32,281 bases of DNA from Fibrobacterota bacterium (GTDB lineage Bacteria > Fibrobacterota > Fibrobacteria > UBA11236). The stretch lies in NCBI GenBank assembly GCA_028287505.1, contig JAQBPN010000086.1, positions 1 to 32,281 of the forward strand, written 5' to 3'. The translations under genes and the position numbers were made by a program. Of the stretch, positions 1 through 15,259 are shown in pieces. The notes below the pieces were generated by a model. That model made no database searches. It worked only from the letters and a program-made list of their open reading frames with translations, and was not told the DNA's origin. How positions within the stretch are numbered: the first letter of the stretch is position 1; every line of letters starts with the position of its first letter.

Positions 1-113
1 TCCCCATCGGCCAAGCGGGCCAGGATGGCGCGCCGGGTGGGGTCCGCGAGGGCGGCGAAGGTGGCGTCCAACTGGTGGGACGAAAAGGCACTTCCATAAC
101 CATGTAGTTGCAT
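1..113 (-). CDS. ArsR-family transcriptional regulator, N-terminal part
   Basis: The reading frame starts at the ATG at 113 and runs off the left edge, giving 37 complete residues. The segment FAALADPTRRAILARLADGE is the classic first part of the winged-helix DNA-binding domain of ArsR/SmtB regulators. The subgroup with this opening often sits beside an AHSA1/SRPBCC gene, but nothing downstream is visible here. Its GC-rich codon use matches the chromosome at the right of the window rather than the cassette genes, so it probably marks the left chromosomal flank of the array. A GTTATG motif occurs twice around the start codon on the minus strand and could be part of an operator; that is a guess. 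Confidence 0.8.
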   Translation of the reverse strand, partial: MQLHGYGSAFSSHQLDATFAALADPTRRAILARLADG

Positions 114-210
114 AACTAAATGGTAATGTACAACAGGCAAACGCTCCTGTCAAGGCGATTTTTCCGGGCCCCCGGTATCTCTTTTTTTGCGAATGGGTCG
201 GTGCGGGGTC

Positions 211-795
211 TTACTTTTTCTTTTCCTTGTCCAAGAATTGTTTCATCTTCAACTTGTTTTCCCCGGTTTTAATCTCAAGAACGGTTTGGATACTTTCCGA
301 TTCGGACCTCCCAATCCATAGATGATTTTCCCTCGCTATTTTTACGGCGTTTGGATCGTTTTCAATCTTGTCTTCTTTGATTTCAAATATCGCCTTCAAT
401 TCCACTTTTTGACTTTTCCAATTTTGGGGATAACCAATCCATGTTTCATCAAAAACCACAGGAATCACATATTGATCCCCGGATTTCAACTGATAAGGAA
501 GAGGGGTATTCGAATCCCCAGCGCCATTTTTCCTTTGCAAAAGGAAATTCGATCCGGTGCTGTCGACAACTTCGAAAGAAAGCAACTGTTCCGACCAGCT
601 ACTCCCGCTTCTCCAAATTGAATATGATTTTTTAGAGGGATTGGTAAGGACAACATAAAAAGGCTGCCAACAGTTAATCCGGTTCCCTTTTTTCTCCGCT
701 GAGGATTGTGGGACGATTCGCGTGGTTAACCTTTCAGAACCCAAACATGCTGCCGAAATTGCGAGAAACATTATGGAAAAGGTTTTAAGCCGCAT
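211..795 (-). CDS. Hypothetical exported protein, last cassette in the array
   Basis: I do not recognise a characterised family. The protein has a short basic start, a hydrophobic stretch (residues about 4-17) and a Cys in ISAAC, so it is exported and perhaps a lipoprotein, though the lipobox is not canonical. The rest reads like a soluble beta-sandwich: a segment PFYVVLTNPS followed by SIWRSGSSW resembles periplasmic Ig-like domains that begin with a statement about additional secondary structure of strands; this is weak. I chose the ATG at 795 because GGGAA lies six bases upstream; an ATG at 807 is also in frame but has AAAGG directly against it. It is the cassette furthest from the presumed insertion end, and I see no attC between its stop and the ArsR gene. 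Confidence 0.65.
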   Translation of the reverse strand: MRLKTFSIMFLAISAACLGSERLTTRIVPQSSAEKKGNRINCWQPFYVVLTNPSKKSYSIWRSGSSWSEQLLSFEVVDSTGSNFLLQRKNGAGDSNTPLPYQLKSGDQYVIPVVFDETWIGYPQNWKSQKVELKAIFEIKEDKIENDPNAVKIARENHLWIGRSESESIQTVLEIKTGENKLKMKQFLDKEKKK

Positions 796-899
796 GATTG
801 TTCCCATCCTTTGAATCAGAGTCGCGCTTCGGACCCGGCCGCTTTGATGATTATTTTATTTTGCTTTAATTTCAATTTCTTTTCCAATTTCTTAAGTCA

Positions 900-1057
900 G
901 TATAGCACATGGGTAAGCGGCGAGCACGGGCGGAGGCGCTGGCAGGGATGGACAAGCCCGGAGGATACCGGCGCGGGGTTTGCGATTACTCAAAAGGGAA
1001 GACCTAGCGAGAGCAAAGGGCGTGACGGCCGAGTACAGTCAAGTTGATACTAGGCGG
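900..1057 (-). other. attC site a (degenerate, long type)
   Basis: Left core reads GTATAGC (900-906) instead of GTATAAC, with the inner box GGGTAAGC at 911-918. The centre keeps ACCGGCGCGG and CGTGACGGCCGAG, both shared with the other long sites. The right inner box AAGTTGATAC is followed by TAGGCGG where GTTATGCGG is expected, so the right core is damaged. The site follows the stop of the 1125-1520 gene and precedes the 211-795 gene in the reading direction. It is probably a decaying attC. Confidence 0.6.
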
Positions 1058-1124
1058 CCGATTTTTACCATTTAGTTTGGATTTCTGTTTGGTTTTCGGG
1101 CTTTGGAACTAAAGCATTACGCCT

Positions 1125-1520
1125 TTAGTCGAAGGAGCCAGGATTAATTTTTCTCATCAAATAATATGCAAATACGACTGCAACCTCCAAATATTTTTCG
1201 GCTACATCGATATCAATTTTCCCTCTTCGTATTTTCATGAATCCAATCCCCTCATCCAGCATTAAAATATCGTAGCTATCCTTGGATTTGGTTGTCAGAT
1301 AAAACATGCCGGCGTGATTTGCAAAGGCCAAGTTGTCGCTTTGAATCACGAAGACTTCTTCATATTTGGTTTTAGCGGTTAGCCTACTAAATTCGATTTT
1401 GAGGTTATCGATGCCTGCACTTCCAGAATTGGCTCCGATATTCAGATTTCCCACTTCCTTTTTTTCGCGCATTAATAGGCAACGACTTGGATGTGGAAAT
1501 GGAAATACTTGGATTTTCAT
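1125..1520 (-). CDS. Hypothetical cassette protein
   Basis: This 131-residue protein is of unknown family. It has a beta-rich middle (YEEVFVIQSDNLAFANHAG, then MFYLTTKSKDSYDILML) and a hydrophobic-helical end (VAVVFAYYLMRKI). The N-terminus is uncertain: the first ATG gives a Pro/His-rich leader, whereas an ATG at 1472 starting MREKKEVGN looks more like a folded domain. Neither start has a clear Shine-Dalgarno sequence. About 150 bp separate the gene from the core of attC b, unusual for a cassette; a small frame sits in that gap. Confidence 0.55.
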   Translation of the reverse strand: MKIQVFPFPHPSRCLLMREKKEVGNLNIGANSGSAGIDNLKIEFSRLTAKTKYEEVFVIQSDNLAFANHAGMFYLTTKSKDSYDILMLDEGIGFMKIRRGKIDIDVAEKYLEVAVVFAYYLMRKINPGSFD

Positions 1521-1571
1521 TTTTATTTCGTCAAGATTTCTTTGGAGTCACCATTGGCCGAAGGCCAAAAT

Positions 1572-1631
1572 TTAGACCGTCGCTTTGAGTCCGCGCCTCC
1601 CATTGGGAACTACTGTCGTGAAGGTTTTCAT
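1572..1631 (-). CDS. Possible 19-residue leader peptide in cassette 5' region
   Basis: A short frame beginning MKTFTTVVPN and ending in TAA follows an AGGAGAG tract directly before its ATG. It lies about 40 bp from the attC b core, where cassette start codons usually sit, and ahead of the 1125-1520 gene. It could be a leader that brings ribosomes to the gene, as described for a few cassette systems, or the broken start of an older gene. The coding evidence is only the ribosome-binding site and position. Confidence 0.25.
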   Translation of the reverse strand: MKTFTTVVPNGRRGLKATV

Positions 1632-1668
1632 CTCTCCTATTCTTCATTTCCTGATATTTTCCAAGTCC

Positions 1669-1835
1669 GTATAATGTCCAATTAACCTGCGAACGAGGCC
1701 CAAAGCCTTGGCACGAAGGGACAAGGGCTGATGGTCACCGGCGTGGGGCTTGCGGAAGAACGGAAAGCGCTTACGGCTTGCGTACGAGGCGAACTCAATG
1801 CGAGAACATCCACTGAGTTCATTGAGGTTATTGGC
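1669..1835 (-). other. attC site b (long type)
   Basis: Left core GTATAAT (1669-1675), left inner box ATTAACC (1681-1687), central GTCACCGGCGTGG (from 1734), right core GGTTATTGG (1827-1835). The TAA stop of the 1828-2280 gene lies inside the right core, so the cassette gene runs into its own recombination site. At 167 bp it is the longest site in the array. Confidence 0.7.
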
Positions 1836-2280
1836 CTTTGCTTTGGACATGCACATCTTGTGGCCTTCTCAAGCCAATTAGGTTGTACTTGAAATTTTTT
1901 GGGTCATCGTTTTTGTTTCGACCTATGTCTTTTCTTATTTCCAATACGAGACGCTTCAATTTGATGTCATGTCCTTCATGCGTTCTGTTTTTGTTTTCCA
2001 TAGAAATTTCCATTCGAAAATCCATTGCCGCATTGATAACTGATTGAGGAGCAACAAGAGCAATCGTATTCATCTCCACGTTAAACTTTTGATTTGACTG
2101 TTCAGCGTCCCTTGTTTGATCGGCCAAGTCTGAAATTGACTTCAAAAGCTCCTTGTAGTGCTTTATTCTTTCATCGATCCATTTCTCTCTTCTTTCAAAC
2201 CTTTTATTTATCAAGTAACCCACGGAACCTGTAAGTACAGCTCCCACGATTCCAATTATCGATAATAAAATATTTTCCAT
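1828..2280 (-). CDS. Membrane-anchored coiled-coil protein, unknown function
   Basis: The 150-residue product begins with one transmembrane helix (about residues 4-24, rich in I, L, V and G), followed at once by a basic, charged helical region (INKRFERREKWIDERIKHYKELL) that should be cytoplasmic and form a coiled coil. The tail is soluble. Small single-span proteins of this design are common in cassette arrays and phages; no function can be assigned. Its stop codon lies within the core of attC b. Only 50 bp, without an attC, separate it from the 2331-2759 gene, so the two share one cassette and are probably co-transcribed. Confidence 0.7.
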   Translation of the reverse strand: MENILLSIIGIVGAVLTGSVGYLINKRFERREKWIDERIKHYKELLKSISDLADQTRDAEQSNQKFNVEMNTIALVAPQSVINAAMDFRMEISMENKNRTHEGHDIKLKRLVLEIRKDIGRNKNDDPKNFKYNLIGLRRPQDVHVQSKGQ

Positions 2281-2330
2281 CTCTCTATCCTTTTTTATCG
2301 CTCTGCCAAATTCATCGATGGTGGAACCAT

Positions 2331-2759
2331 CTATGGCTCAATAAGGTACTCTTTCATAATGCTCAGTATGTCTTCGGATGGCCTACCCATATTATACCCA
2401 CCGTTTATTATCCATGAATCCGTGTTTTTCAAATTGCAAACCAATGCAACTTTTTCGAGGGCTTCATCGTGAGGATACAGATACCACCCGTGCTTACCCT
2501 GAAACATCACGTAAATATTCTTGCCCTCGTACTTTTTTCCAAATGAAAGACGGCCTTTCAATTGAATTTTAAGCGTGATTTCACCGCTGATATGATGGGC
2601 TAAGAAATCTGCGCCGTTCCAATCGTCATCTAACTTTAAAGCGGCGAAGCCATAATCTGCAAGAACGGCGCCAGCCTTTTGAAAGTTAAACCGTTCCTGT
2701 TGTCGAGATTCAAGTTCCGCATAGTTAATTCGGCCAACTTCTTTGCCTTCAACTTTCAT
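2331..2759 (-). CDS. PD-(D/E)XK-like hypothetical protein
   Basis: The 142-residue product belongs to a widespread family of uncharacterised proteins whose signature is FNFQKAGAVLADYGF, DDWNGADFLA, QLKGRLSF and GWYLYPHDE. The Asp in NGADF (D51) followed fifteen residues later by QLK (Q66, K68), with beta strands between, resembles the active-site pattern of restriction-endonuclease-like folds with Gln in place of Glu. That assignment is inference from the motif. The start at 2759 has AGGAAT just upstream. It is the first gene of a two-gene cassette. Confidence 0.7.
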   Translation of the reverse strand: MKVEGKEVGRINYAELESRQQERFNFQKAGAVLADYGFAALKLDDDWNGADFLAHHISGEITLKIQLKGRLSFGKKYEGKNIYVMFQGKHGWYLYPHDEALEKVALVCNLKNTDSWIINGGYNMGRPSEDILSIMKEYLIEP

Positions 2760-2839
2760 CTTTTATTCCTCGTCTTTGGCCGTAGGCCTCAGCTTCTTTA
2801 ACCAAGGCCCGAATAGGGCCCACTATTCTACCCCTGTCC

Positions 2840-2936
2840 GTGTAACAACTGCTTAAGCCGTGAGCACGGACGGAGGGCCGGGACGGACAGCCCGCAGTGT
2901 CACCGGCGCGCAATCGACTTGATCCCTTTGTTATGC
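2840..2936 (-). other. attC site c (short type)
   Basis: Left core GTGTAAC (2840-2846), left inner box CTTAAGC (2852-2858), central GTCACCGGCGCGCAATCGAC, right inner box ending GACTTGATC, right core GTTATGC (2930-2936). The reverse complement of the right half reads GATCAAGTCG against GCTTAAGCCG on the left, showing the additional C typical of the L'' box. Total 97 bp. Confidence 0.85.
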
Positions 2937-2973
2937 GGGCGTACCGTAGCTCAACTCGGTATTCTTATTCTTC

Positions 2974-3495
2974 TCAAATATTTGGTTCAACACCGTCTCG
3001 ATCTCTTATGACTCCGATGAAAATTCCTTCTAGGCCTAGTATGGAAGAAATCAGGTCGTCAATTGCTTTGGAAAAATCTTCCTTCAGAAGTCCTGGAACA
3101 ACTGGTGAATTACTCAAGTCTCTTATGTTCGGAATCATCACTTGCCAAGATCCTTCTGGTAGTTGTTTCATTGCAAGTGGATTGTGGGCTATAACATTTC
3201 TTAAGGAATAAATTTGTTTGATTCTTCCCAAAAGGGCCCGAACTATTTTTAATTCTGTTTCCTCTTTGATTTGTTCATTTACAAATCCGTATATCAATCC
3301 AATCCTGAACTCGAAGTCCTGATTCTTTGCCTTTTCAAATTTATCCCCGCCTATCCAGGTTAACCACTTATATGTCTGAAGCTCTGCGTTTCCCATATTT
3401 ATAAAGAATGCACCGACAAGGCTCGCCCACTCTTTTGCTCCCGCTCCATTTATCTCGATCCCTGCTTTTCTCAATCCCGAGTAACCTACAGTCAT
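2974..3495 (-). CDS. HEPN-like helical protein
   Basis: The 173-residue product is predicted mostly helical. It carries SLRNVIAHNPLAM around residues 98-109: R99 followed by four residues and H104 (RNVIAH). The Rx4-6H motif is the RNase signature of HEPN domains found in toxins, abortive-infection proteins and CRISPR effectors. The general helical layout before the motif (a long helix, then IKQIYSLRN) also fits. No partner antitoxin gene is in the same cassette. Function as an RNase or defence protein is inference; many HEPN-like proteins with this motif remain uncharacterised. Confidence 0.7.
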   Translation of the reverse strand: MTVGYSGLRKAGIEINGAGAKEWASLVGAFFINMGNAELQTYKWLTWIGGDKFEKAKNQDFEFRIGLIYGFVNEQIKEETELKIVRALLGRIKQIYSLRNVIAHNPLAMKQLPEGSWQVMIPNIRDLSNSPVVPGLLKEDFSKAIDDLISSILGLEGIFIGVIRDRDGVEPNI

Positions 3496-3498
3496 TTT

Positions 3499-3611
3499 AG
3501 TTTCCTATCTACTCCATTTTGTATGGAACGGTTCTTACATCTGGCTGACATGCGGATAACCGATGAGCCCTAAAGGAACAAAGCCAATAACATTTTTTCG
3601 TTTCACGTATT
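3499..3611. other. Gap between two cassette genes lacking a clear attC
   Basis: An attC is expected here, between the 3612-3998 gene and the 2974-3495 gene. I see GTATGGAACGG near 3521 where a left core might be, and a weak TGGCT...AGCCA inverted pair, but no GTTATNC right core and no GTCACCGGCG centre. The site is either lost or too diverged to recognise. Confidence 0.4.
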
Positions 3612-3998
3612 TTATTTACTGATCAACTTGGTCTTTGCGTCACCATGGCCAACATGATCGGTAAGCTTTTCGCTCGACTGTTTTACAATTTTTCCCGTCT
3701 TCTTATTCGTGATCAACTCAGAGTACCAATTATTCCCTCTATCCAATATCCTTATTAAATAGTTCCAGACTCCGGTGTTTCTGTGGAAATCATCGCCTTG
3801 AGAAATCTCCAAAATTGGCCTTTTTATTCCGGGTCGCGTATGACTCGCCTTTAGCCGCACTTTCGCTTCCACTTGTGCGGGCAGTATTCTTTGGTGGAGC
3901 CTTGACCTAGATCCACAATTTGGGCAAGGTATTCTATCGCTAACAGATTTTTTGTGATCGTCCCGAATTTCCTGTTGGCAATTTCCACACTGGATCAA
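3612..3998 (-). CDS. Zinc-ribbon cassette protein
   Basis: The product is 128 residues. A zinc ribbon is formed by C4-x2-C7 and C25-x2-C28 (QCGNC and PCPNCGS). The middle carries WNYLIRILDRGNNWYSELITNKKTG and the end KLTDHVGHGDAK. This combination, a CxxC...CPxCGS start and an HxGHGxAK end, recurs in uncharacterised proteins often found in cassettes and accessory islands. The zinc ribbon probably stabilises or binds nucleic acid; no enzymatic residues are apparent. It stands alone in its cassette, with attC e upstream. Confidence 0.75.
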   Translation of the reverse strand: MIQCGNCQQEIRDDHKKSVSDRIPCPNCGSRSRLHQRILPAQVEAKVRLKASHTRPGIKRPILEISQGDDFHRNTGVWNYLIRILDRGNNWYSELITNKKTGKIVKQSSEKLTDHVGHGDAKTKLISK

Positions 3999-4068
3999 AT
4001 TCCACCTCTCAATTCTTGGAATAAATTACGCCAAAATAATAGAAGCTTGATGCGTTGGTTCCTCGTCC

Positions 4069-4207
4069 ATATAACGCCCGGTTAACCCGCAAGCGAGGGC
4101 GAAGGCCCTGGCCTGGAAAGGACAGAGCCTGAGCGTCACCGGCGTGGCCTTTGCGCAAGCAAAGGGCATGACGGCCGAGGCTTGTCGGGTTGAACCGATT
4201 GTTATGC
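4069..4207 (-). other. attC site e (long type)
   Basis: Left core ATATAAC (4069-4075), left inner box GGTTAACC (4080-4087), central GTCACCGGCGTGG, then GGCATGACGGCCGAGG, right inner box GGGTTGAACC (4188-4197), right core GTTATGCGG (4201-4209). Reverse-complementing the right half gives GGTTCAACCCG against GGTTAACCCG on the left: one additional base, as expected for L''. Confidence 0.85.
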
Positions 4208-4288
4208 GGTGGGCTTTATTCATAACGTTCTCATGTTTGAGCACTTCACGTATAAATCCGCCTTCCGAAGAATGCGCGCAATTCATAG

Positions 4289-5095
4289 TTATTCGACTAT
4301 AACGCCATAGTCGATGATGCATACTTGTTTCGGATTCATGATGTTAGACCCGTGATAATACTCTCCAATCGATGCATCTGATGGTGGATGCATCGGTGTT
4401 CCATCCGGGTTATCTTTGTAGAACCACGGAACATCAGCAAATATTTTTCCGGTGTACTTTGGTCCACCTGGATTTTCAGACAATGGCAAATTACCTACAA
4501 GCGCTGGGCAGCAGAGTAAGCATCTAAATGGCTTCGTTTCCTTCTGCTTATTTATTTTTTCAAATGTTACGTTAGGATTTCTTCCCCTAATTTTTTGAAC
4601 AATGTCCGCGGGTGAATAAACACACCCGGTTTGTTGAATATCCACTTGCTGCGTACAATTCCACGTTTCTATAGTCTCGATGCGATTGTAAAACAGATAC
4701 ACGGCTTCCGCGCCGTGGTCTTTCGCCCATTTTTTAATCTTTCTGATCTGGGTACCGTTTTTCCGGCCCTTAAGCGACTCATACACATTCGTATCGTGAT
4801 TCAATATTTTTGCTTGCACTGCATATCGTCTAAAACCAGAAACAGTCGCTCCGATCCAAAGTTCTAATTCAAAGTCACAACCGCTTTTTGCTTCCTTTTG
4901 CCTAGAGTGTGGAAACACTTTCGTTTTCCAAAGTTTGGATTGCAGAAATTCTAGAATCAGATCTTCTGTGAAATACTCCTCTTTTGGTGAATGCCCTCCA
5001 ATATGGAAAGTCTTGATCTTATCCCTAGTTTGAATCGAGACTTTTTCAATCACACGTTGGATCGCTGCTGCCCTACTATACTCGTCCATTTTCAT
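4289..5095 (-). CDS. DUF6615-like PD-(D/E)XK family protein
   Basis: The 268-residue product resembles a family of uncharacterised restriction-endonuclease-fold proteins (I recall it as DUF6615). Visible features are TEDLILEFLQ (43-52), SGCDFELELWIG with D74, RRYAVQAKIL with Q94-A-K96, ESLKGRKNGTQI, and HGAEAVYLFYN (128-137). D74 and QAK fit a PD-(D/E)XK active site in which Gln replaces Glu; E44 could complete it. DNA cleavage is inferred, not shown. The start at 5095 sits 18 bp inside the cassette with AGAGAG just before it. Typical of accessory and defence islands. Confidence 0.75.
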   Translation of the reverse strand: MKMDEYSRAAAIQRVIEKVSIQTRDKIKTFHIGGHSPKEEYFTEDLILEFLQSKLWKTKVFPHSRQKEAKSGCDFELELWIGATVSGFRRYAVQAKILNHDTNVYESLKGRKNGTQIRKIKKWAKDHGAEAVYLFYNRIETIETWNCTQQVDIQQTGCVYSPADIVQKIRGRNPNVTFEKINKQKETKPFRCLLCCPALVGNLPLSENPGGPKYTGKIFADVPWFYKDNPDGTPMHPPSDASIGEYYHGSNIMNPKQVCIIDYGVIVE

Positions 5096-5112
5096 CTCTC
5101 TTTATTCCGTCC

Positions 5113-5212
5113 GCATAACACCTGGATAAGCCGTGAGCACGGACGGAGAGCCTGGCCGGCACGGACAGCCCATAGTCTCACCAGCGCGCAATCGACTTTA
5201 TCCTATTATACG
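5113..5212 (-). other. attC site f (short type)
   Basis: Left core GCATAAC (5113-5119), left inner box GGATAAGCC (5124-5132), central CTCACCAGCGCGCAATCGAC, right inner box GACTTTATCC (5194-5203), right core ATTATACGG (5205-5213). Close sister of site c through the shared CGTGAGCACGGACGGAG and GCGCGCAATCGACTT blocks. Confidence 0.8.
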
Positions 5213-5289
5213 GCGAGAGTATCGTTTGGCTCATCGGATTTTCCAAATATTGTCGTACTCAACGCCGGAGACAGGATTCGAATTAATGA

Positions 5290-6009
5290 TCATTTGAGCT
5301 CCATGAACCCATTTTTCTTCATTATTTCCACAGCAGTCATGATTTTATAGAGTGTAGCCTTTTTGAAACCCTGCTCACCTGGAAATATCTCGTCAAAGAG
5401 TATGAATGCTATCCGAGACATTTCAAATAAAGACCAGATGTGCCATCTAAAGAAATTTTTAGCAGTACCCTCATCAAAACCTGGTACGAAGGATGTTCCG
5501 TATCCAGCTCCTGTTTGATACGAAACGATGGCGCTTTGTATTTGTCCAATACTAGATGGGTGGGCCAAACCATTTATTTCGCCGTAAAATCTTTGGGTTC
5601 CATGAGGGGCGTGCTTCGCATTCGGAACTCTCTTAGACTCTACTATACCCTTTTTTATTTGACCAATTTTAGCCACCATTTCATAGTCCTGCTTTAGGAC
5701 AGCGGCGGCCTTCAAATATTGCCCTTCTGAAATGCAATGCTCAGTGATTCCTATTCCTTGAAGATAGGCGCATAAAACTGTTAAGATGTCGCTGCGTTCC
5801 TTATTGAAGTCTCCGCTTTTTTCATCGTATTTTTCAAAAAGAAGATGAAGGGCTGCCACATAAGCATGTCTTACGACCGATAGATCGCCATAAACATTTT
5901 TGGATAGGGACCTTATTTTTTCACCAGCCGTTACGATAATGTTTTCAAATTCGATACTTTTTTGCAGATAGGCATCGATTTCGGATTCCATTGGTTTTTG
6001 TTCTTCCAT
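5290..6009 (-). CDS. Hypothetical helical protein (DUF5677-like)
   Basis: The 239-residue product is almost wholly helical. It contains a buried-looking segment VLKQDYEMVAKIGQI (about 125-140), then FYGEINGLAHPSS (about 160-172) and a hydrophobic helix WSLFEMSRIAFILFDEIF. The order, an acidic helix followed by a (Y)xxxNxxxHP turn and more helices, is reminiscent of DUF5677 and DUF6988-type proteins found in defence islands, but the match is weak. It begins 20 bp inside its cassette and is followed by attC f. Confidence 0.65.
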   Translation of the reverse strand: MEEQKPMESEIDAYLQKSIEFENIIVTAGEKIRSLSKNVYGDLSVVRHAYVAALHLLFEKYDEKSGDFNKERSDILTVLCAYLQGIGITEHCISEGQYLKAAAVLKQDYEMVAKIGQIKKGIVESKRVPNAKHAPHGTQRFYGEINGLAHPSSIGQIQSAIVSYQTGAGYGTSFVPGFDEGTAKNFFRWHIWSLFEMSRIAFILFDEIFPGEQGFKKATLYKIMTAVEIMKKNGFMELK

Positions 6010-6028
6010 CTTTTCACTTTCCTCGTCC

Positions 6029-6165
6029 GTATAACGGCCGGTTAACCTGCGAGCACGGACGGAGGTATCCGCTGGCTAGCGGAAGCCGAAGTGTCACCGG
6101 CGTAGTTTTCGCATAAGCGAAAGGCATGACGGCCGAGCGCAGTCTGTTCGACCCATTTGTTATAC
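6029..6165 (-). other. attC site g (long type)
   Basis: Left core GTATAAC (6029-6035), left inner box GGTTAACC (6040-6047), central GTCACCGGCGTAG, then GGCATGACGGCCGAG, right inner box GTTCGACCC (6146-6154), right core GTTATAC (6159-6165). The outer boxes are exact reverse complements. This is the clearest attC in the window. Confidence 0.9.
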
Positions 6166-6197
6166 GGCTCTTGTCTACCAATTTAATTGGTCTTTAT

Positions 6198-7061
6198 TCA
6201 TTGAAAATCGATCGGGTCTAAATGCTTTCGAATAAATTCTCCGGGTGACCCTTTACTTAAAAGGCCAGCAAAAGTTTGTTCATTCACAATTACTGAAAGG
6301 CTGGTAGCAAGACATCTACTTACTATTCCAAGAAGTCTATGAATGGACATTAAGGGGTAAATCGCAGCCAACGGATCATCAGGGCCCCTTGGTAATTCGT
6401 TTGAAAATACATGCGCAAAGAAGGAGAGATGCTCGTAGTCGGCGTATTTTTTGGAATTACTGTGTTTCGATTTCAATATTTTTAATGGAAATAAAGAAGG
6501 AGGAACTGATTTCTTTCCCATGATTATTTTTTTGTGGTCTCGAACAAGTCCTTTGAAATGGGGATTTGTCTTCAAATCTCGGACAAGTACTTCGATCGAT
6601 TGATCTGTCTCAGCGTTAATGGCTTGGAAGAATCTTTTCTGGATATCGTTAAAATCCTCTTCTCCCCTCTTGCTACTGAGTTTTACATTGTACCGACCAC
6701 TAAGCAAGTAGAGTTCTTTCCTAAACATGGCTCTTTCACCATCGCTTTTGTAAAGCATCCAATTGAGCAGCAATGAAGCTTCAAATATTGGTCGGCTCAA
6801 ATTGGCAATCGCGTAGACATTTTCTTCCCGTATTCTTGATTTTATTCGAAGATTTTTTCCAATTCCCCGAGTCTCCTTGTAAATTTTCTCTCCAAGGGTA
6901 AGGGCGATTAAAAATATTTTCATTTCGGAAGAATCGAATCGAGCTCTATTTTTCCAAAAATGGCGGCAGGCAATTAGGATTACAGAAAACTCAACGAACG
7001 CTTGATTTGCATTCGAATATATTTGTTCGAGCACGGTTTTTTTATTGATTTCGGTTTTCAT
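6198..7061 (-). CDS. Hypothetical helical protein, first cassette
   Basis: Starting at the ATG at 7061 (MKTEINKKTVLEQ), 15 bp inside the cassette, the product is 287 residues. A longer frame begins at 7139 but crosses the recombination core and is not credible. The protein is helical, with ANLSRPIFEASLLLNWMLYK in its first half and YEHLSFFAHVFSNE in its second. The pattern of a helix with RPxxEA and a later YxxLSxxxH is seen in DUF5677-like uncharacterised proteins. It occupies the position next to the presumed insertion end, where cassettes are newest and expressed most. Confidence 0.65.
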   Translation of the reverse strand: MKTEINKKTVLEQIYSNANQAFVEFSVILIACRHFWKNRARFDSSEMKIFLIALTLGEKIYKETRGIGKNLRIKSRIREENVYAIANLSRPIFEASLLLNWMLYKSDGERAMFRKELYLLSGRYNVKLSSKRGEEDFNDIQKRFFQAINAETDQSIEVLVRDLKTNPHFKGLVRDHKKIIMGKKSVPPSLFPLKILKSKHSNSKKYADYEHLSFFAHVFSNELPRGPDDPLAAIYPLMSIHRLLGIVSRCLATSLSVIVNEQTFAGLLSKGSPGEFIRKHLDPIDFQ

Positions 7062-7075
7062 TTTTATTTTCGTCC

Positions 7076-7095
7076 GTATAACAATATTATTAACC
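7076..7095 (-). other. Terminal cassette core site (attI-like or half attC)
   Basis: The core GTATAAC (7076-7082) is followed by TTATTAACCC, spaced like the R' and L' boxes of the attC sites. No matching right half follows. On the minus strand this reads GTTATACGGACG directly before the first cassette gene, the same sequence that starts the other cassettes. It may be an attI, a secondary insertion site or the remnant of an attC. Confidence 0.5.
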
Positions 7096-7205
7096 CTTCC
7101 ACCCCTTGTCGCTCCCCCATCTCCCTCTCCCCTTTTCACCCCGAAACCGAAGATCTCGCATTCGGTATAGTCTGCGCAAGTCCGAATCGGTAATTGCCGT
7201 TGCCT

Positions 7206-7784
7206 TCACTTTGCAACCTTCTCCTTCATCCCCTTTTTCTCCCCCGTCTCCCTCTTCACTTCCCCCATCACGAACGTCTCATACCCCAACGCATTGAAGC
7301 TTCTCCCCCGCCCCCACGCAAACACCTTCTCGAACACCCTCATCGCCCAATGCCCCTGGGCCCGCTCCAAAAAGAAAATCTCATGGGTCTTTTCCACCCG
7401 CGCCATCTCCCGGATGCACTCGATCTCCTCGTGCATCCCCGCCTCCCGCGCCAGCGTTTCCATGCGCACGTACTCGTTCACGTTTCCGCTTTCCAGCCTC
7501 CCCGCGAAGTACATGGGCATGAACCATCCGATCAAGTGGCAGGATAGCCCGATGCCCTTGCCGATGCAGAAATACTTCATCTCCAGATAAGGAGATGGCT
7601 TCGCGGTCATCTTGGCCAGCATGCGCGCCAGATGCTCCCGGTGCGTCCATTCCTCTTTTTCGATACGCATCAGAGCGGCTTTTTCCATGGGGTCCGCCAC
7701 GGAGGCGGCATGGCCCTGATAGGCGAATGCGGCGGCCCGTTCGGCGGAATAGGCCAAGCGTACCAGATGCAAAAGCTCGCGCAT
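7206..7784 (-). CDS. Ferritin-like di-iron protein
   Basis: The 192-residue product has the spacing of a four-helix di-iron protein: E15 (SAERA), E45-x2-H48 (EEWTH), a Glu near 98-110 and E131-x2-H134 (EKTH). This matches the E, ExxH, E, ExxH arrangement of the ferritin-like superfamily, closest in style to COQ7 and MiaE hydroxylases. A hydrophobic segment (about 72-95) might lie on the membrane. The substrate is unknown. It ends in a Lys-rich tail. The gene is divergent from the outer-membrane lipoprotein gene and marks the return to chromosomal GC-rich DNA. Confidence 0.75.
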   Translation of the reverse strand: MRELLHLVRLAYSAERAAAFAYQGHAASVADPMEKAALMRIEKEEWTHREHLARMLAKMTAKPSPYLEMKYFCIGKGIGLSCHLIGWFMPMYFAGRLESGNVNEYVRMETLAREAGMHEEIECIREMARVEKTHEIFFLERAQGHWAMRVFEKVFAWGRGRSFNALGYETFVMGEVKRETGEKKGMKEKVAK

Positions 7785-7957: not shown

Positions 7958-8866
7958 ATGATGAGAAGAATCGTTCCGACCCTGGCCCTGGCTCTCCTGA
8001 CCGCCGCCTGTACCGCGCCCCGCTCCGTCCTGCTATCCCCGGAGGCCCTGCCCAAGGGACGCTGGGAGGCGGGCGCGGGCATGGACTTCAACGTTCCCAC
8101 GCAAACCTCGGATGCGCTGAGCGACGGCCTGAAACAAGGCGTGGGCATGCTTTACGATGATGTTTCCAGTCACGACGTCACCGCCATCTCCGCGGACAGC
8201 CTGAACGTGTTCGCCAAGGCGCTGGTTGCCTATTCGGTCGATCCATTGGGCGCGCAGCCGGGGTTGTTCATCCGTTACGGCTTCTGGCCCCGCCTGGACG
8301 GAGGCTATCACTATACCGGAGGGGCGCATGCCTTCGATCTCCGCTGGCAATTCCTGGGGGCCAAGGCCGGGGACACATTGGCGTCCGGCCAATCGGCGTG
8401 GCAAGCGAGCGTGGGAGCGCAATACAGCTGGCAGAGCTTCGATCTGCCTTCGGTGGCGGGCTTGGACAAACTGCAGGAGATCCTCCAGTACGAGTTCAAG
8501 CGCAAGGACATCCTGATTCCCCTGATGGTGGGCAGGCCTTTTGGGGAACATGGGCGTTACGGGGGGTTCGGGGTGGGGGCCGCATACAATCTCAGCTTCG
8601 TCCAATACGGATCCGACGTGGTCAAATTGGTGGAACAGAAGTCGGACGGCACCACCGCGGCCTTCGCGCCCTTGCGGGGCGACAAAACCATATCCTCCTA
8701 CGGCGGCTTCGCCAATGTCCGCGCGGGCTACCGCTGGGTCTACTTGGTGGCGGCCATGTCCGCATATTGGCAGGACTACGGGGAGTTCGATCTGTTCGGC
8801 GGGAAAAGCGTGGAGCTCAAGGGTTGGACGTATCTTCCGTCCGCGGCCTTGGAGTTCCGCTTCTAG
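7958..8866 (+). CDS. Outer-membrane lipoprotein with beta-barrel features
   Basis: The 302-residue product starts with a lipoprotein signal (MMRRIVPTLALALLTAAC) whose Cys follows LTAA. The body alternates aromatic and hydrophobic residues typical of strands (LFIRYGFWPRLDGGYHYT, GFANVRAGYRWVYLVAAMSA) and ends in EFRF with a terminal Phe, as outer-membrane barrels do. I chose the ATG at 7958 because GGGAAG lies nine bases upstream; a frame opening at 7901 adds residues before the signal and is unlikely. No homologue of known function is recognised. It converges on rlmN with only 3 bp between stops. Confidence 0.75.
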   Translation: MMRRIVPTLALALLTAACTAPRSVLLSPEALPKGRWEAGAGMDFNVPTQTSDALSDGLKQGVGMLYDDVSSHDVTAISADSLNVFAKALVAYSVDPLGAQPGLFIRYGFWPRLDGGYHYTGGAHAFDLRWQFLGAKAGDTLASGQSAWQASVGAQYSWQSFDLPSVAGLDKLQEILQYEFKRKDILIPLMVGRPFGEHGRYGGFGVGAAYNLSFVQYGSDVVKLVEQKSDGTTAAFAPLRGDKTISSYGGFANVRAGYRWVYLVAAMSAYWQDYGEFDLFGGKSVELKGWTYLPSAALEFRF

Positions 8867-8869
8867 CCT

Positions 8870-9988
8870 CTAAGTGACAGCCGGGCTGGTTTCGCCCGCG
8901 AGGGATCGCGCGCCCGTCCGGCGCAGGGCCCGGTTCCCCAGCTGGCCGCAGGCCGCCATGGAATCTTTTCCCTTGGTGCCGCGGATGCGGCAGTATTGTC
9001 CCGCTTCCATGAGCCAATGGTAGAAGTCCGCCACGCCGTCCTTTTCCGGGCGGCCATAAGGCGAATCCAACCTGGGATTGTACGGGATCAGGTTCACGCA
9101 GGCTTTGAGATCGCGCAGGTATTCCGCCACCTCCAGAGCGTGTTCCTTTGCATCGTTGACTCCGGCCAGGAGCACGTATTCCATGAACAGGAAATCGTCC
9201 TTGTGCGCCAAGGGGAAGTTCCGCAGGGCCTCCTTGAGCGCCGCCAGCGGCCATTGCCGGTTGATGGGCATGATACGGGAACGGATGGCATCGTTGGGAG
9301 CGTTGAGGCTCACGGCCAGGCGCAGGCGCGAGAAGCCATGCGGGGGCGGCTGGGCGGCCAGGCGTGCCAGACGGTTGATGCCGTCCACGTGGCCTACCGT
9401 GGAAACGGTGATGGCGGACTGGGCGATGTTGAGGCCGCGCTGATCGGAAAGGATGCGGACGGCTTGGAGCACGTTGTCGAGATTGTCCATCGGCTCGCCC
9501 ATGCCCATGAAGACCACGTTCTGGATGGGCTCTTTGAGGACGTGGCGGGCGACCATCACCTGGGCCACGATTTCGCCCGCGTCCAGGCTGCGCAGATAGC
9601 CCATCTGGGCGGTCTCGCAAAAGGTGCATCCCATCTTGCAGCCCACCTGGGAAGAGATGCACAGGGATTTGTACTGGCGCATGGGAATCACCACGGATTC
9701 GCTTTCCAGACCGTCGCGCAGCTTCAGGATGAACTTATAGGTCTCGCCATCCCCGGAGCGGCCGGCTTCCCGGGGCAATGCGTACTGGAACGCGCCGCGC
9801 ACGGCTTGGGCCAGGGATGGGTTGGCGGCGAACTCGGGCAGAAGCCCGGGATCGGATTCGCCGCGGCGATACAGGGAGCGGAACAGGGCGCCGGCATGGT
9901 ACTCGCCCTTGCCGAAGCGGCGGTCGAACTCGGCGGTCAGGCCGTCGTAGTCATAGCGGAGGATGTCGTCCGGGCCGGAGAGTGGCAT
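8870..9988 (-). CDS. rlmN: 23S rRNA (adenine-2503-C2)-methyltransferase RlmN
   Basis: Radical-SAM enzyme that methylates A2503 of 23S rRNA, and some tRNAs, in the cytoplasm. The iron-sulphur cluster motif is C117-x3-C121-x2-C124 (GCKMGCTFC). The two mechanistic cysteines of the family are present: C110 seven residues before the cluster and C347 in MAACGQLGN. Other signatures are VVFMGMGEPMDN, AITVSTVG and AVSLNAPND. The residues after the cluster read CETAQMG rather than the usual CATGQ-type sequence, a variant I associate with a subgroup of RlmN-like proteins. Length (372) is normal. The minus-strand start at 9988 has AGGATCC upstream. Confidence 0.92.
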   Translation of the reverse strand: MPLSGPDDILRYDYDGLTAEFDRRFGKGEYHAGALFRSLYRRGESDPGLLPEFAANPSLAQAVRGAFQYALPREAGRSGDGETYKFILKLRDGLESESVVIPMRQYKSLCISSQVGCKMGCTFCETAQMGYLRSLDAGEIVAQVMVARHVLKEPIQNVVFMGMGEPMDNLDNVLQAVRILSDQRGLNIAQSAITVSTVGHVDGINRLARLAAQPPPHGFSRLRLAVSLNAPNDAIRSRIMPINRQWPLAALKEALRNFPLAHKDDFLFMEYVLLAGVNDAKEHALEVAEYLRDLKACVNLIPYNPRLDSPYGRPEKDGVADFYHWLMEAGQYCRIRGTKGKDSMAACGQLGNRALRRTGARSLAGETSPAVT

Positions 9989-10089
9989 GGATCCTATATA
10001 CTTAAAATCCCCCGCGGCCGGAAAGGCGCGGCATGTCCTTGGGTTTGGAAGTTATAGCTTGGACGGGCGCGGCCGGCCGGAAGCCCGGC

Positions 10090-10894: not shown

Positions 10895-11611
10895 CTAGGC
10901 CGAGAGGCCCCACTTCACGCGGCTTACGCCGGGACAGGCGGTAAGACTCTCCACCACCTGGCGCGAGAGGGTGAAGACTTCGTTGCGGCGCATCTTCACG
11001 TCCCAATGCAAGGTGCGGTTGGAGGCGGACAGATCATAGTCCAGGGCCACGCGCTGCACGCGCACGCCCACCGCTTCCAGGCGTTTGCGTATCTCGTCGT
11101 CGCTCATCCCGTTCAGGCCCATCACCATGGTGACCGTCACGTAGTAGTCCTTCTTGACATGCTGTTCCATGTGCGGCAGCGCGAAGAGCGCGATGATGGC
11201 GATGACGGTTCCGATCACGCCGATGAGGAGATGTCCGCTTCCGAAAGCCAGGCCCAGGATGGTGATGAACCACAGCACCGCCGCCGTGGTCACGCCGCGC
11301 ACCAGGGTGCCTTGGCGGATGATGGCTCCCGCGCCCAAAAAGCCGATGCCGGTGAGGATGCCGGCCGCCAAGCGGGCCCGATCGGGACGGAACATTCCGG
11401 CGGCCTGATTCAGGCTTTCCCGGTAGAAGTCCTCGGACAGGATCATGGCCAGGCAGGACGCCACACAGGCCAGGATAGTGGTCTTGAGGCCCGCCGCCCG
11501 TCCATGGCTCTCACGCTCCAGGCCCAGAATAAGGCCGGCGGCCAGGGCAAAACCGATACGGATCATCACTTCCTTGAAGTCCAAGGCCGCTACAGGATTC
11601 AAAAATGCCAT
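10895..11611 (-). CDS. MgtC/SapB-family membrane protein
   Basis: From the ATG at 11611 the product is 238 residues. The first 145 residues hold about four to five transmembrane helices with the MgtC signature: RIGFALAAGLILGLERESHGRAAGL reduced to its key pieces, GLERE (about 30-34) and HGRAAGLKT (36-44), followed by GILTGIGFLGAGAII. The soluble C-terminal part (about 155-238) resembles the ACT-like regulatory domain of the longer family members. MgtC proteins help growth at low magnesium, partly by acting on F-type ATPase; many homologues have unproven roles. The frame continues upstream but has no family resemblance there. Confidence 0.88.
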   Translation of the reverse strand: MAFLNPVAALDFKEVMIRIGFALAAGLILGLERESHGRAAGLKTTILACVASCLAMILSEDFYRESLNQAAGMFRPDRARLAAGILTGIGFLGAGAIIRQGTLVRGVTTAAVLWFITILGLAFGSGHLLIGVIGTVIAIIALFALPHMEQHVKKDYYVTVTMVMGLNGMSDDEIRKRLEAVGVRVQRVALDYDLSASNRTLHWDVKMRRNEVFTLSRQVVESLTACPGVSRVKWGLSA

Positions 11612-12541: not shown

Positions 12542-13426
12542 ATGAATTCACTGCAGTCGCGCATAAGGGAATTGAAGCCGGCCGCCATTCTCCTGTATTT
12601 GTCCCTGATGGGGTTCCTCAGCATCTTTTCCGTGCAGAAATATCTCGGGCTGGGCTTCGAACCGCTCAACTGCCTCAGCTTCATGGGCATCATTTTCGGC
12701 GTATACACGCTTAACCGGTTCACGGATACCACCGAGGATTTCACCAACGATATCGGCCGCCTGCTGTTCTTCCAGCGCAAAAGGGCTTTCCTGTTCCTGG
12801 CGGAGGCATCGCTGGCCGCCAGCATCGGCATTCTACTGTACGTGGGAAAGTTGAACTGGATGCATTTCCTGCTTCTGGCGATGGGCTTTGGATATTCCTA
12901 TCGGCTGGTGCCTTGGTATTCGCGCACCCGGGGCTTCCGCATGTTGCGGATCAAGGAAATGACCTTCGTGAAGAATCTGGCCGTGTCCTTCCTGTGGAGC
13001 TCCTCCGTCTTCGTCGTGCCCGTGCTGTATTCGGGCGCGGCCGGCTTCGACAGGGTCATGGTCTGGCTGCTTGCCGGCGGCCTTTTCATAAGCACCTTCA
13101 ACAACACCCTGTTCGATGACATCATGGACGAACCGGGCGATCGCGTCGCCGGCATCAAGACCCTGCCCACCCTTTGGGGCGGCCGCAAGTCGATAGCGCT
13201 GCTGATGACCGTGGACGTGGCCTGGCTGCTGGCCGTGGCGGCGTTGCGGCTCGCGGGGCGGATCGACTCCGGGCACGCGGCCTTTCTGGCCTTCCTGGGA
13301 TTCTATCCCTTCCTGTACCTGGGATTGTATTCGCGCAAGACGGTGCCGAGCGCATGGATCGATATCCTGTCGGAAACGGATCTGCTCTTCTTCGCTTTGG
13401 GCATGCTGATGCTCAGCGTCCGCTGA
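12542..13426 (+). CDS. UbiA-family prenyltransferase
   Basis: The 294-residue product is an integral membrane protein of eight to nine helices. It has both aspartate-rich motifs of the UbiA superfamily: N58-R59-x2-D62-x3-D66 (NRFTDTTED) and D192-D193-x2-D196-x3-D200 (DDIMDEPGD), which bind Mg and the prenyl diphosphate. The family joins prenyl chains to quinone rings, haem, chlorophyll or lipids; the substrate cannot be read here. The ribosome-binding site GGAGG precedes the ATG at 12542. The gene is alone on its strand and converges with the histidine kinase. Confidence 0.8.
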   Translation: MNSLQSRIRELKPAAILLYLSLMGFLSIFSVQKYLGLGFEPLNCLSFMGIIFGVYTLNRFTDTTEDFTNDIGRLLFFQRKRAFLFLAEASLAASIGILLYVGKLNWMHFLLLAMGFGYSYRLVPWYSRTRGFRMLRIKEMTFVKNLAVSFLWSSSVFVVPVLYSGAAGFDRVMVWLLAGGLFISTFNNTLFDDIMDEPGDRVAGIKTLPTLWGGRKSIALLMTVDVAWLLAVAALRLAGRIDSGHAAFLAFLGFYPFLYLGLYSRKTVPSAWIDILSETDLLFFALGMLMLSVR

Positions 13427-13474: not shown

Positions 13475-15259
13475 TCAGCCTACCAGATGGTGCTGGCGTT
13501 CCTTCATGCGCACGCGGGGCAGTTGCCGGCGCAGCAGACGGTTGAGAACATACTCTTCGGAGAACATCTCCGGACGGCTGCCCTTGCCGTGGTCCAGGAC
13601 GTACTGGTTGCGCTCATGATGGGAGACCAGGCAAAGTTGCGGATAGACCGCCAGCTTGGTGAAGTTGGCCGCCATGGTCTTGGCGCTCACCAGCACCGTC
13701 ACCGCATCGGGCGCGTATTCCGGATCGAGGAGTTCGTTCACGCTGGGCACGATGCTGGGATTGACCCGGATGTTCTGGAACACGCGGATGAGATCGGACA
13801 TGTTGTCCATCCCGTCCTTGACCACCACGATGGGATGCTTGCGACGCGCTTCCTCCTCGATATGTTCGGCATAGATGGGGAAGGTGATGATGAGCTTGAG
13901 CCCATGTTCCTCTTTTTTCCCCAGGTTCTTGGAGTAGGCGCTGATGCGCCCTCCATGGCTTTCCACGATGGTGCGGGTGATGGACATGCCCAGCCCGGTT
14001 CCGCCCTTGCTTTTCTTGGTGGTATAGAATGCCTTGAAGATGTGCTCCAGCTGTTCTTTGTCGCAACCGGTTCCGTTGTCTTCGATGCCGATCACAAGGA
14101 GCGTTTCGGTGGCCGTGAGCTTGACCCTCACTTCCACCGGGGCGCCGTTCCCGGCTTCAAAGCTGTTGTTGAAGATATTGACGAAAACCTGCTCCAGCTT
14201 GCCCCAGTCCCCGAACATGAAACGATCGCGTTCCAGTCCGGCCAGGGAGAAGGAAGCGCGCCGACCCGGAAAATGCTTCTCGACGGAGCCCTTGATCACC
14301 TCGGAGAGGTTGACGGGATGCTTTTCCCGGATCACTTCGGTGCGTGAGAGCTTCAGGATATCGTCGCTGAAATAGGCAAGCCGCTCCACGGTCGTCACGA
14401 TGTTGTTGACGATGTCCTTGCCTTTTTGGGACAGGGTTTCCACCTCTTGGAGAATCTGCGCGTTTCCGGAAATCATGAACATGTAATTCTTGATTTCATG
14501 GTTGATGATGGCCGTGGACTCGCCCAGTTGCTTGAGGACGTTCACCTGCTCCAAATCCTTATAGGCCGATTCCAGCTTGGTGAAGTTGTTCTCCTTCTCG
14601 TTCAAAAGCATCAGGAACCGCTCGGTGAAAATCATGGAGGCCATGAGCCCATAACCCAGGACACCCAGAATGGTGAAGCTCGGAATTGTCGAAAGAATGG
14701 TATTGGCAAAAGCGACGATGTCCAGGATGCCGCATGCGCACAACCCCAGGAATCCGAATAAGTGGAAAAGGAGGATGCGCCGCTCCCCCGCCTGAGAGCG
14801 GCGGAGCTTGTTTATGATGATGAAGTTGGAGGAGAGGACATACACGAGCACGAAAGGGATGAAAAGCCAGTTGTAAAGAATGCCGGCCCGATAGGTCCCT
14901 TCCGAGATAAAGAGCATTTTGTCGGAGAGGAAGGTCGATGCCAGGAGAAAACTGCTCGCGGCCACCACGGGCATCAGCTTCAGGAACCGGGAGGAAGTGA
15001 GGATGAGCAGATACCAGATGGAAAACGGCATGAAGAGGCATGCGAGCAGATGGTAGACCCGTTGCCAGAACAACAGCTTCAGGGGATCCGTCATCCCCGG
15101 CGTCACCCACAGATCGATGGCCGTCATCGCGCACAGCAGGATGAGGGAAAGACCGAAGAATCGAAAACTCTTATCGAAATCGGTTCTCAAGTCGATGAGG
15201 ATGAACAATGCTCCCACTGCAAATAGAAAGGAGCATATCGCTTGAAGGACCAGTACCAT
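13475..15259 (-). CDS. Membrane histidine kinase with a C-terminal receiver-like tail
   Basis: The 594-residue product opens with about seven transmembrane helices (residues 1-215), similar in layout to 7TM sensor kinases. The HisKA box has H254 (INHEIKN). The ATPase domain has N361 and N364 (NIFNNSFEA), DNGTG (394-398), FKAFYTTK and GGTGLGMS. After the ATPase, about 120 residues (470-594) start with RKHPIVVVKDGMDNM and continue as alternating strands and helices; they resemble a receiver domain that lacks the acidic pocket. The signal is unknown. It lies 1.3 kb from the response regulator gene at 16596, a candidate partner, with an outer-membrane protein gene between. Confidence 0.85.
   Translation of the reverse strand: MVLVLQAICSFLFAVGALFILIDLRTDFDKSFRFFGLSLILLCAMTAIDLWVTPGMTDPLKLLFWQRVYHLLACLFMPFSIWYLLILTSSRFLKLMPVVAASSFLLASTFLSDKMLFISEGTYRAGILYNWLFIPFVLVYVLSSNFIIINKLRRSQAGERRILLFHLFGFLGLCACGILDIVAFANTILSTIPSFTILGVLGYGLMASMIFTERFLMLLNEKENNFTKLESAYKDLEQVNVLKQLGESTAIINHEIKNYMFMISGNAQILQEVETLSQKGKDIVNNIVTTVERLAYFSDDILKLSRTEVIREKHPVNLSEVIKGSVEKHFPGRRASFSLAGLERDRFMFGDWGKLEQVFVNIFNNSFEAGNGAPVEVRVKLTATETLLVIGIEDNGTGCDKEQLEHIFKAFYTTKKSKGGTGLGMSITRTIVESHGGRISAYSKNLGKKEEHGLKLIITFPIYAEHIEEEARRKHPIVVVKDGMDNMSDLIRVFQNIRVNPSIVPSVNELLDPEYAPDAVTVLVSAKTMAANFTKLAVYPQLCLVSHHERNQYVLDHGKGSRPEMFSEEYVLNRLLRRQLPRVRMKERQHHLVG

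Follow-up and report, generated by a model that had tools for sequence, protein, structure and literature searches.

The window analysed here is the whole of contig C114 (32,281 bases) from the metagenome-assembled genome (MAG; 6.07 Mb in 130 contigs) of a Fibrobacteria species, and its left end carries an array of integron cassettes with no integrase gene beside it. With a probability of roughly 0.8, we read this element as one attI-headed cassette array of a multi-array chromosomal integron system whose only true integron integrase (IntI) lies elsewhere in the genome, on contig C53. By definition the array is a cluster of attC sites lacking an integron integrase (CALIN), and it is best read as an attI-headed satellite of the multi-array chromosomal integron. 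The element is real and mostly an ordinary CALIN; what is unusual is that it has an attI of its own with the integrase located elsewhere. CALINs are about as frequent as integrons, and their origin is argued solely from the absence of intI. A conserved attI at the head of such an intI-less array makes it possible to tell off-target insertion apart from an integron whose own integrase was lost or was never present.

The first-pass annotation had described an integrase-less array of nine minus-strand genes in a GC-rich chromosome and had taken it for a CALIN. Nine minus-strand open reading frames (ORFs) do occupy about 211-7061, each with 37-43% GC, and the stretch 211-7078 has 42.7% GC versus 61.2% in the remaining contig. 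The CALIN label is correct under a working definition of at least two attC sites with no intI nearby, but the element is not a bare attC cluster, since it is headed by an attI at 7074-7095. Similarly, the description "without an integrase" is right for this locus, with no intI anywhere on C114, but not for the genome, where the proposed genome-wide search finds a complete IntI on C53, together with an attI and cassettes.

The attI head and the integrase locus

We compared the host genome (G000) with other Fibrobacteria genomes (G001-G005 and G010), among which the genus mates include G001, G002, G003 and G004. The attI core at the head of the array (7074-7095, minus strand) reads GGTTAATAATATTG^TTATACGG, with the crossover between 7082 and 7081. 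Window positions 7073-7109 align with C53 2395-2430, which lies between intI and the first cassette of that contig. The core is exact on C53, C114 and a third host contig, C29, as well as next to intI in G004 (C13), and the attI beside intI in G002 differs from it by one mismatch; four of the five copies thus agree at every position from -14 to +8 relative to the crossover. Positions +1 to +8 are common to cassette starts, so that only the 14-nt left half, GGTTAATAATATTG, is specific to attI; it occurs in none of the attC sites studied here. In the host genome an attI 20-mer, with up to three mismatches allowed, is confined to array heads, and a pattern search of 61 genomes found no further attI site at fewer than three mismatches.

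Outside the core the copies have little in common: their 70-base flanks share 27-44% identity, about the level expected by chance. A search for a recent segmental duplication of the C53 platform gave this chance-level identity for the flanks of all attI copies. Flank divergence is uninformative on the age of the copies, because intI-bearing genus mates are equally diverged there, and core conservation cannot date the copies either, because the same short core is all that intI-linked copies share across species. As judged from sequence, a 22-nt core conserved amid drifted surroundings is compatible with use and no proof of it.

The C114 and C29 arrays both start with attI and have no intI alongside. 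On C114, as the first-pass annotation had noted for the insertion end near 7,100, a ferritin-like gene stands where intI would be expected, its end about 110 bases past attI; on C29, about 760 bases past attI hold no recognisable intI remnant. Searches for intI remnants next to these two attI copies with tblastn and hidden Markov models gave nothing above noise. An intI together with an attI beside the array had been named as evidence against a CALIN, and here the attI is present and the intI absent. A short hairpin (CGGGCTATTATAATAGCCCG in C53; CGGGCTATT..AATAGCCCG and variants) lies 65-70 nt from attI on the intI side in C53 (L027, about 2480-2500); it is similar in G004 and C29 (L038, L028) and not clear in C114.

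One protein of the host genome scores above the TIGR02249 cut-off of 265: the 505-aa IntI of C53 (L027:2643-4160; 381-382.8 bits), which has the catalytic motifs of tyrosine recombinases and, in its IntI-specific domain, the W-WQWVFP stretch. Its gene has an attI of its own and a divergent cassette array with attC sites of the same family as those of the window (L027:926-1067 and 1548-1689). C53 therefore unites intI, attI and cassettes as a complete integron does, whereas the window has attI and no adjacent intI. Beyond intI lies an RND efflux pump gene, apparently also in G004 and G001 (as read from the frames, with no family search), and this recurring neighbour hints at a settled intI locus. 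C53 is only 11.8 kb long, and the locus is presumably chromosomal.

The IntI proteins of Fibrobacteria (C53, and also G001, G002, G004 and G010) are extended at the N terminus by some 80 residues, which are followed by a variable linker. In an AlphaFold model of the G002 protein (mean pLDDT 57, of which only the N-terminal helix pattern was used), this extension is predicted to form four helices, in the manner of a second SAM-like core-binding domain. No such domain is seen in the IntIs of Methylomonas and Gemmatimonadetes that we compared.

The attC family and the cassettes

We aligned 13 attC sites from four contigs of the host genome and from two genus mates and built a covariance model, R1, from the genus's own sites; R1 is specific to this family and distinct from the IntegronFinder attC model. 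The consensus folds into an R''/R' stem, an L''/L' stem and two inner arms. In the L''/L' helix (helix 2), 92.9% of cells are paired, with an extrahelical base, which sets the orientation of the site, at fixed column 19 in L''. Across the alignment 95.8% of cells are paired, versus 83.8% after shuffling and 29-41% when one side is slid, and compensatory changes occur in 23 of the 46 pairs. The bottom strand of window 4065-4209, which contains attC 3, folds with a z-score of -5.7.

In the window R1 recognises six attC sites, each of them on the minus strand, with E values from 6e-38 to 9e-6. It has 22 matches in the host genome; in the class, 6 of the 126 genomes searched have any, and the strong ones are confined to the genus. 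The one model fits G000, G002 and G004. The site family is genus-specific. The arms, the extrahelical base and the covariation are characteristic of attC sites, and together with the R1 matches they mean that the array is not due to chance. These results agree with the first-pass proposals of a single host-specific site family, recognisable by a covariance model, with shared blocks GCCGGTGA and GGACGG (present as CCGTCC). Its view that the genes are spaced by co-oriented sites is accurate as to orientation, but with six sites for nine genes there is not one per gene.

Read from attI outwards, all on the minus strand, the array begins with a 287-aa gene at 6198-7061, without a Pfam or NCBIfam match, listed from an upstream GTG at 7139 although the ATG at 7061 is the likelier start. 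It is followed by attC 1 (6028-6167; R' GTTATACGG; 115 bits, a seed of R1). The second cassette consists of a 239-aa gene without a family match (5290-6009) and attC 2, a site of the short type (5112-5213; R' GTTATGCGG; 52.7 bits, E 1.1e-11, outside the seed). The third holds a 268-aa DUF6615-like gene (4289-5095; PF20320 E 2e-5, barely above the gathering score) and the best site, attC 3 (4068-4209; 155.5 bits, a seed). Two cassettes carry two genes each. In the fourth, a 128-aa gene with a weak zinc-ribbon match below cut-off (3612-3998) and a 173-aa gene without a family match (2974-3495) have no attC between them (3495-3612) and share attC 4, again of the short type (2839-2938; R' GTTACACGG; 48.5 bits, E 1.2e-10, outside the seed). 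In the fifth, a 142-aa gene without a family match (2331-2759) and a 150-aa gene with a weak 1TM effector-like match (1828-2280; PADLOC E 2.5e-4) precede the decayed attC 5 (1668-1803; 29.4 bits, E 9e-6, outside the seed), in which R'' is lost and the crossover triplet is ATT in place of GTT. The sixth comprises a 131-aa gene without a family match (1125-1520) and attC 6, also decayed (899-1057; triplet GCT; 41 bits, E 1e-8, outside the seed). A distal AT-rich gene (211-807; 198 aa, 41% GC) has no recognisable attC and is presumably the last cassette, its site lost.

Decay is thus polar: the four attI-proximal sites, of six in the window, retain the GTT crossover triplet at R', the two distal ones are broken and the last gene is siteless. 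Such a gradient is what insertion at attI, with distal cassettes ageing, predicts. Every full-length attC on C29 and C53 is intact. The C29 array looks fit for use and the C114 array looks half retired.

With Pfam, NCBIfam and defence models, no confident family could be assigned to eight of the nine ORFs, the exception being the borderline DUF6615 match. Defence-system models gave nothing convincing for the cassette proteins, no homologues of the nine were found at the other loci compared, and an Rfam scan of the window returned zero matches.

Additional sites of the family occur elsewhere. C103 has further attC sites (L029 702-2824) and resembles an intact array tail, C126 has decayed ones with crossover triplets ATT and TTT (L030 8136-8311 and 9127-9297), and C46 has a solitary site (L114 6544-6680). 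In G001, contig C17 (L039) encodes a full IntI (335 bits) yet has no attC matching R1; its attC family may differ.

Chromosomal setting, origin and present activity

To the right of the array lies the ferritin-like gene (7206-7784, minus strand), with orthologues at 72% identity in G003 and 68% in G005 and a weak COQ7/rubrerythrin match (COQ7 E 3.7e-5), followed by an rlmN-type gene in the same order as in G003. At the left end, the first 127 bases of the window match those of C119 exactly in reverse complement (1-127 in both), and arsR, AHSA1, further genes and finally lgt follow on C119. The left native flank (1-170, minus strand) contains the start of arsR (HTH_5) and, by promoter scan, its promoter TTGACA-17-TACATT, at 84% identity to the arsR locus of G004. 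Because this homology stops at 170, the left edge of the array lies at about 170-211 and not at 114, where the first-pass annotation had placed it. About 60 bases separate the ferritin gene from lgt in G003; what is a nearly empty spot there holds the array and the arsR module in G000. The branching of the assembly at the 127-mer suggests alternative sequence or strain variation at the distal array edge in the sampled population.

Under the attI-headed satellite reading, cassettes would enter at the attI beside the ferritin gene through recombination of attI with attC, carried out by IntI on the bottom strand in its folded form, and newer cassettes would push older ones toward arsR. An intI that formerly accompanied this attI, if there was one, would have been lost, and present movement of cassettes at C114 would require the C53 IntI in trans. 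For the source of the attI we favour an old duplicate platform, in which attI may have been copied with an integron platform that later lost its intI.

Several points weigh against this reading. Action of the C53 IntI in trans on the C114 array is a supposition drawn from sequence. All window sites except 4068-4209 are weaker than those of C29 and C53, and the C114 array may therefore be retired. Two of the six window sites (6028-6167 and 4068-4209) trained R1; the four outside the seed score E 1e-11, 1e-10, 1e-8 and 9e-6. Finally, with the MAG in 130 contigs, the attI-ferritin join could be chimeric, although it lies inside one contig.

The rival that we take most seriously, while giving it somewhat less than even odds, is an inert relic, an old integron whose own intI was lost and on which the C53 IntI does not act. 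It shares the whole anatomy with the satellite reading and differs solely in present activity. The broken distal crossover triplets, the siteless last gene and the weak window sites all fit such a relic; on the other side, the four proximal sites retain their GTT triplets and the attI core is intact despite surroundings at chance level, which is compatible with continued use and again no proof of it. At the other extreme, and more tentatively still, the genome may hold a distributed integron in which at least three attI-headed arrays at separate chromosomal loci depend on one IntI, with its additional core-binding-like domain at the N terminus, C114 and C29 being intI-less satellites kept functional by selection on the 22-nt attI.

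Three origins have been proposed for CALINs: off-target insertion, loss of intI and separation from intI (PMC8618304). An array seeded off-target at an attG site by the C53 IntI, with an attI-like head due to chance or convergence, is improbable here. Insertion at attG is reported in work cited in PMC12444791, and the left half of attI does resemble the L' boxes of attC sites (GGTTAA). Nevertheless, the 14-nt left half is identical at three host loci and in G004, whereas the attC stretches from L' to the crossover vary, and the limitation of the 20-mer to array heads also tells against coincidence; the attI at the head argues against an off-target origin. An assembly artefact, with a single integron split at repeats and intI adjacent to the array in the finished genome, is largely refuted and very unlikely. 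Splitting of this kind is a known artefact of draft genomes (PMC9024848), and both C53 and C29 end inside attC sites. However, C114 runs into chromosomal genes on both sides (ferritin and rlmN on the right, arsR on the left), its overlap with C119 is exact and collinear with G003, and C53 has its own attI by its intI. A search for end overlaps that would join C53, C29 and C103 found none. That the sites are not attC at all, and instead palindromic repeats of another type such as REP or IS ends, can practically be dismissed. They are palindromic, specific to the genus and without an Rfam family match, but they combine the extrahelical base with paired R''/R' and L''/L' arms, lie in a single orientation with one or two genes per interval, and occur in a genome with an IntI whose attI core is shared by the array.

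The CALINs of Xanthomonas away from ilvD are among the closest known systems: there, too, intI-less attC arrays lie at a distance from an intI elsewhere in the genome and are in principle mobilisable in trans (PMC12444791). Mobilisation of CALIN cassettes in trans is accepted (PMC12444791, PMC9668308). Unlike those arrays, two here start with an exact copy of the resident attI, a site that is outside the CALIN definition. The system resembles sedentary chromosomal integrons of the Vibrio and Xanthomonas type in having an IntI divergent from an attI-cassette array, a homogeneous attC family within the genus, cassettes mostly of unknown function and, in G000 and apparently G004 and G001, an intI beside RND genes. 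It differs in spreading its cassettes over at least three attI-headed loci, in the extra N-terminal helical domain of its IntI and in its Fibrobacterota host. A degraded integron with deleted intI likewise retains attI and cassettes; here, in contrast, a full IntI with an identical attI core is found elsewhere in the genome. In archaeal integrons a semi-conserved attI lies by intI (PMC9668308). Keyword searches of the open-access literature returned no account of a genome in which several copies of attI each head an array of their own, which is not proof of absence.

IntegronFinder 2.0 detects attI in class 1 integrons only (PMC9024848), so it would not reveal the head of this array. The presence of a conserved attI on an array without intI suggests that some CALINs would be reclassified by searches that take attI into account. 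Should the attI function in trans, the capacity to take up cassettes would be spread over several loci under one integrase. The first-pass annotation had called such arrays little described for this kind of organism, and as far as this was checked we agree: Fibrobacterota is not in the list of integron-bearing phyla in PMC8618304, and a keyword search of open-access literature found no paper on integrons in the phylum, which does not prove that none exists. Going by the literature searched, Fibrobacterota is a new addition to the phyla known to bear integrons.

A possible integron-like system on C85

Another locus of the host genome (L113; G000:C85:40000-56000) encodes an IntI-like tyrosine recombinase (3996-5171, plus strand) that ends in VVSPLD and is without the IntI-specific insert; its TIGR02249 match covers 2-181 and 237-315 only. 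The recombinase is followed by same-strand genes spaced by large repeats, at about 6429, 7010-7199, 9872-10061, 11277-11549, 12972-13246 and 14233. The best two repeats are about 270 nt long and 87% alike, terminate in GTTGGGC and are attC-like in appearance. Two attC sites of the main family (8146-8272 and 13824-13937) lie in the same array. This locus is possibly an integron-like system with an I2-less recombinase. G002 has a similar recombinase (L121:7531-8526) with one such repeat after it (L121:10158-10343), and in G001 a similar recombinase (L120) lies near direct repeats.

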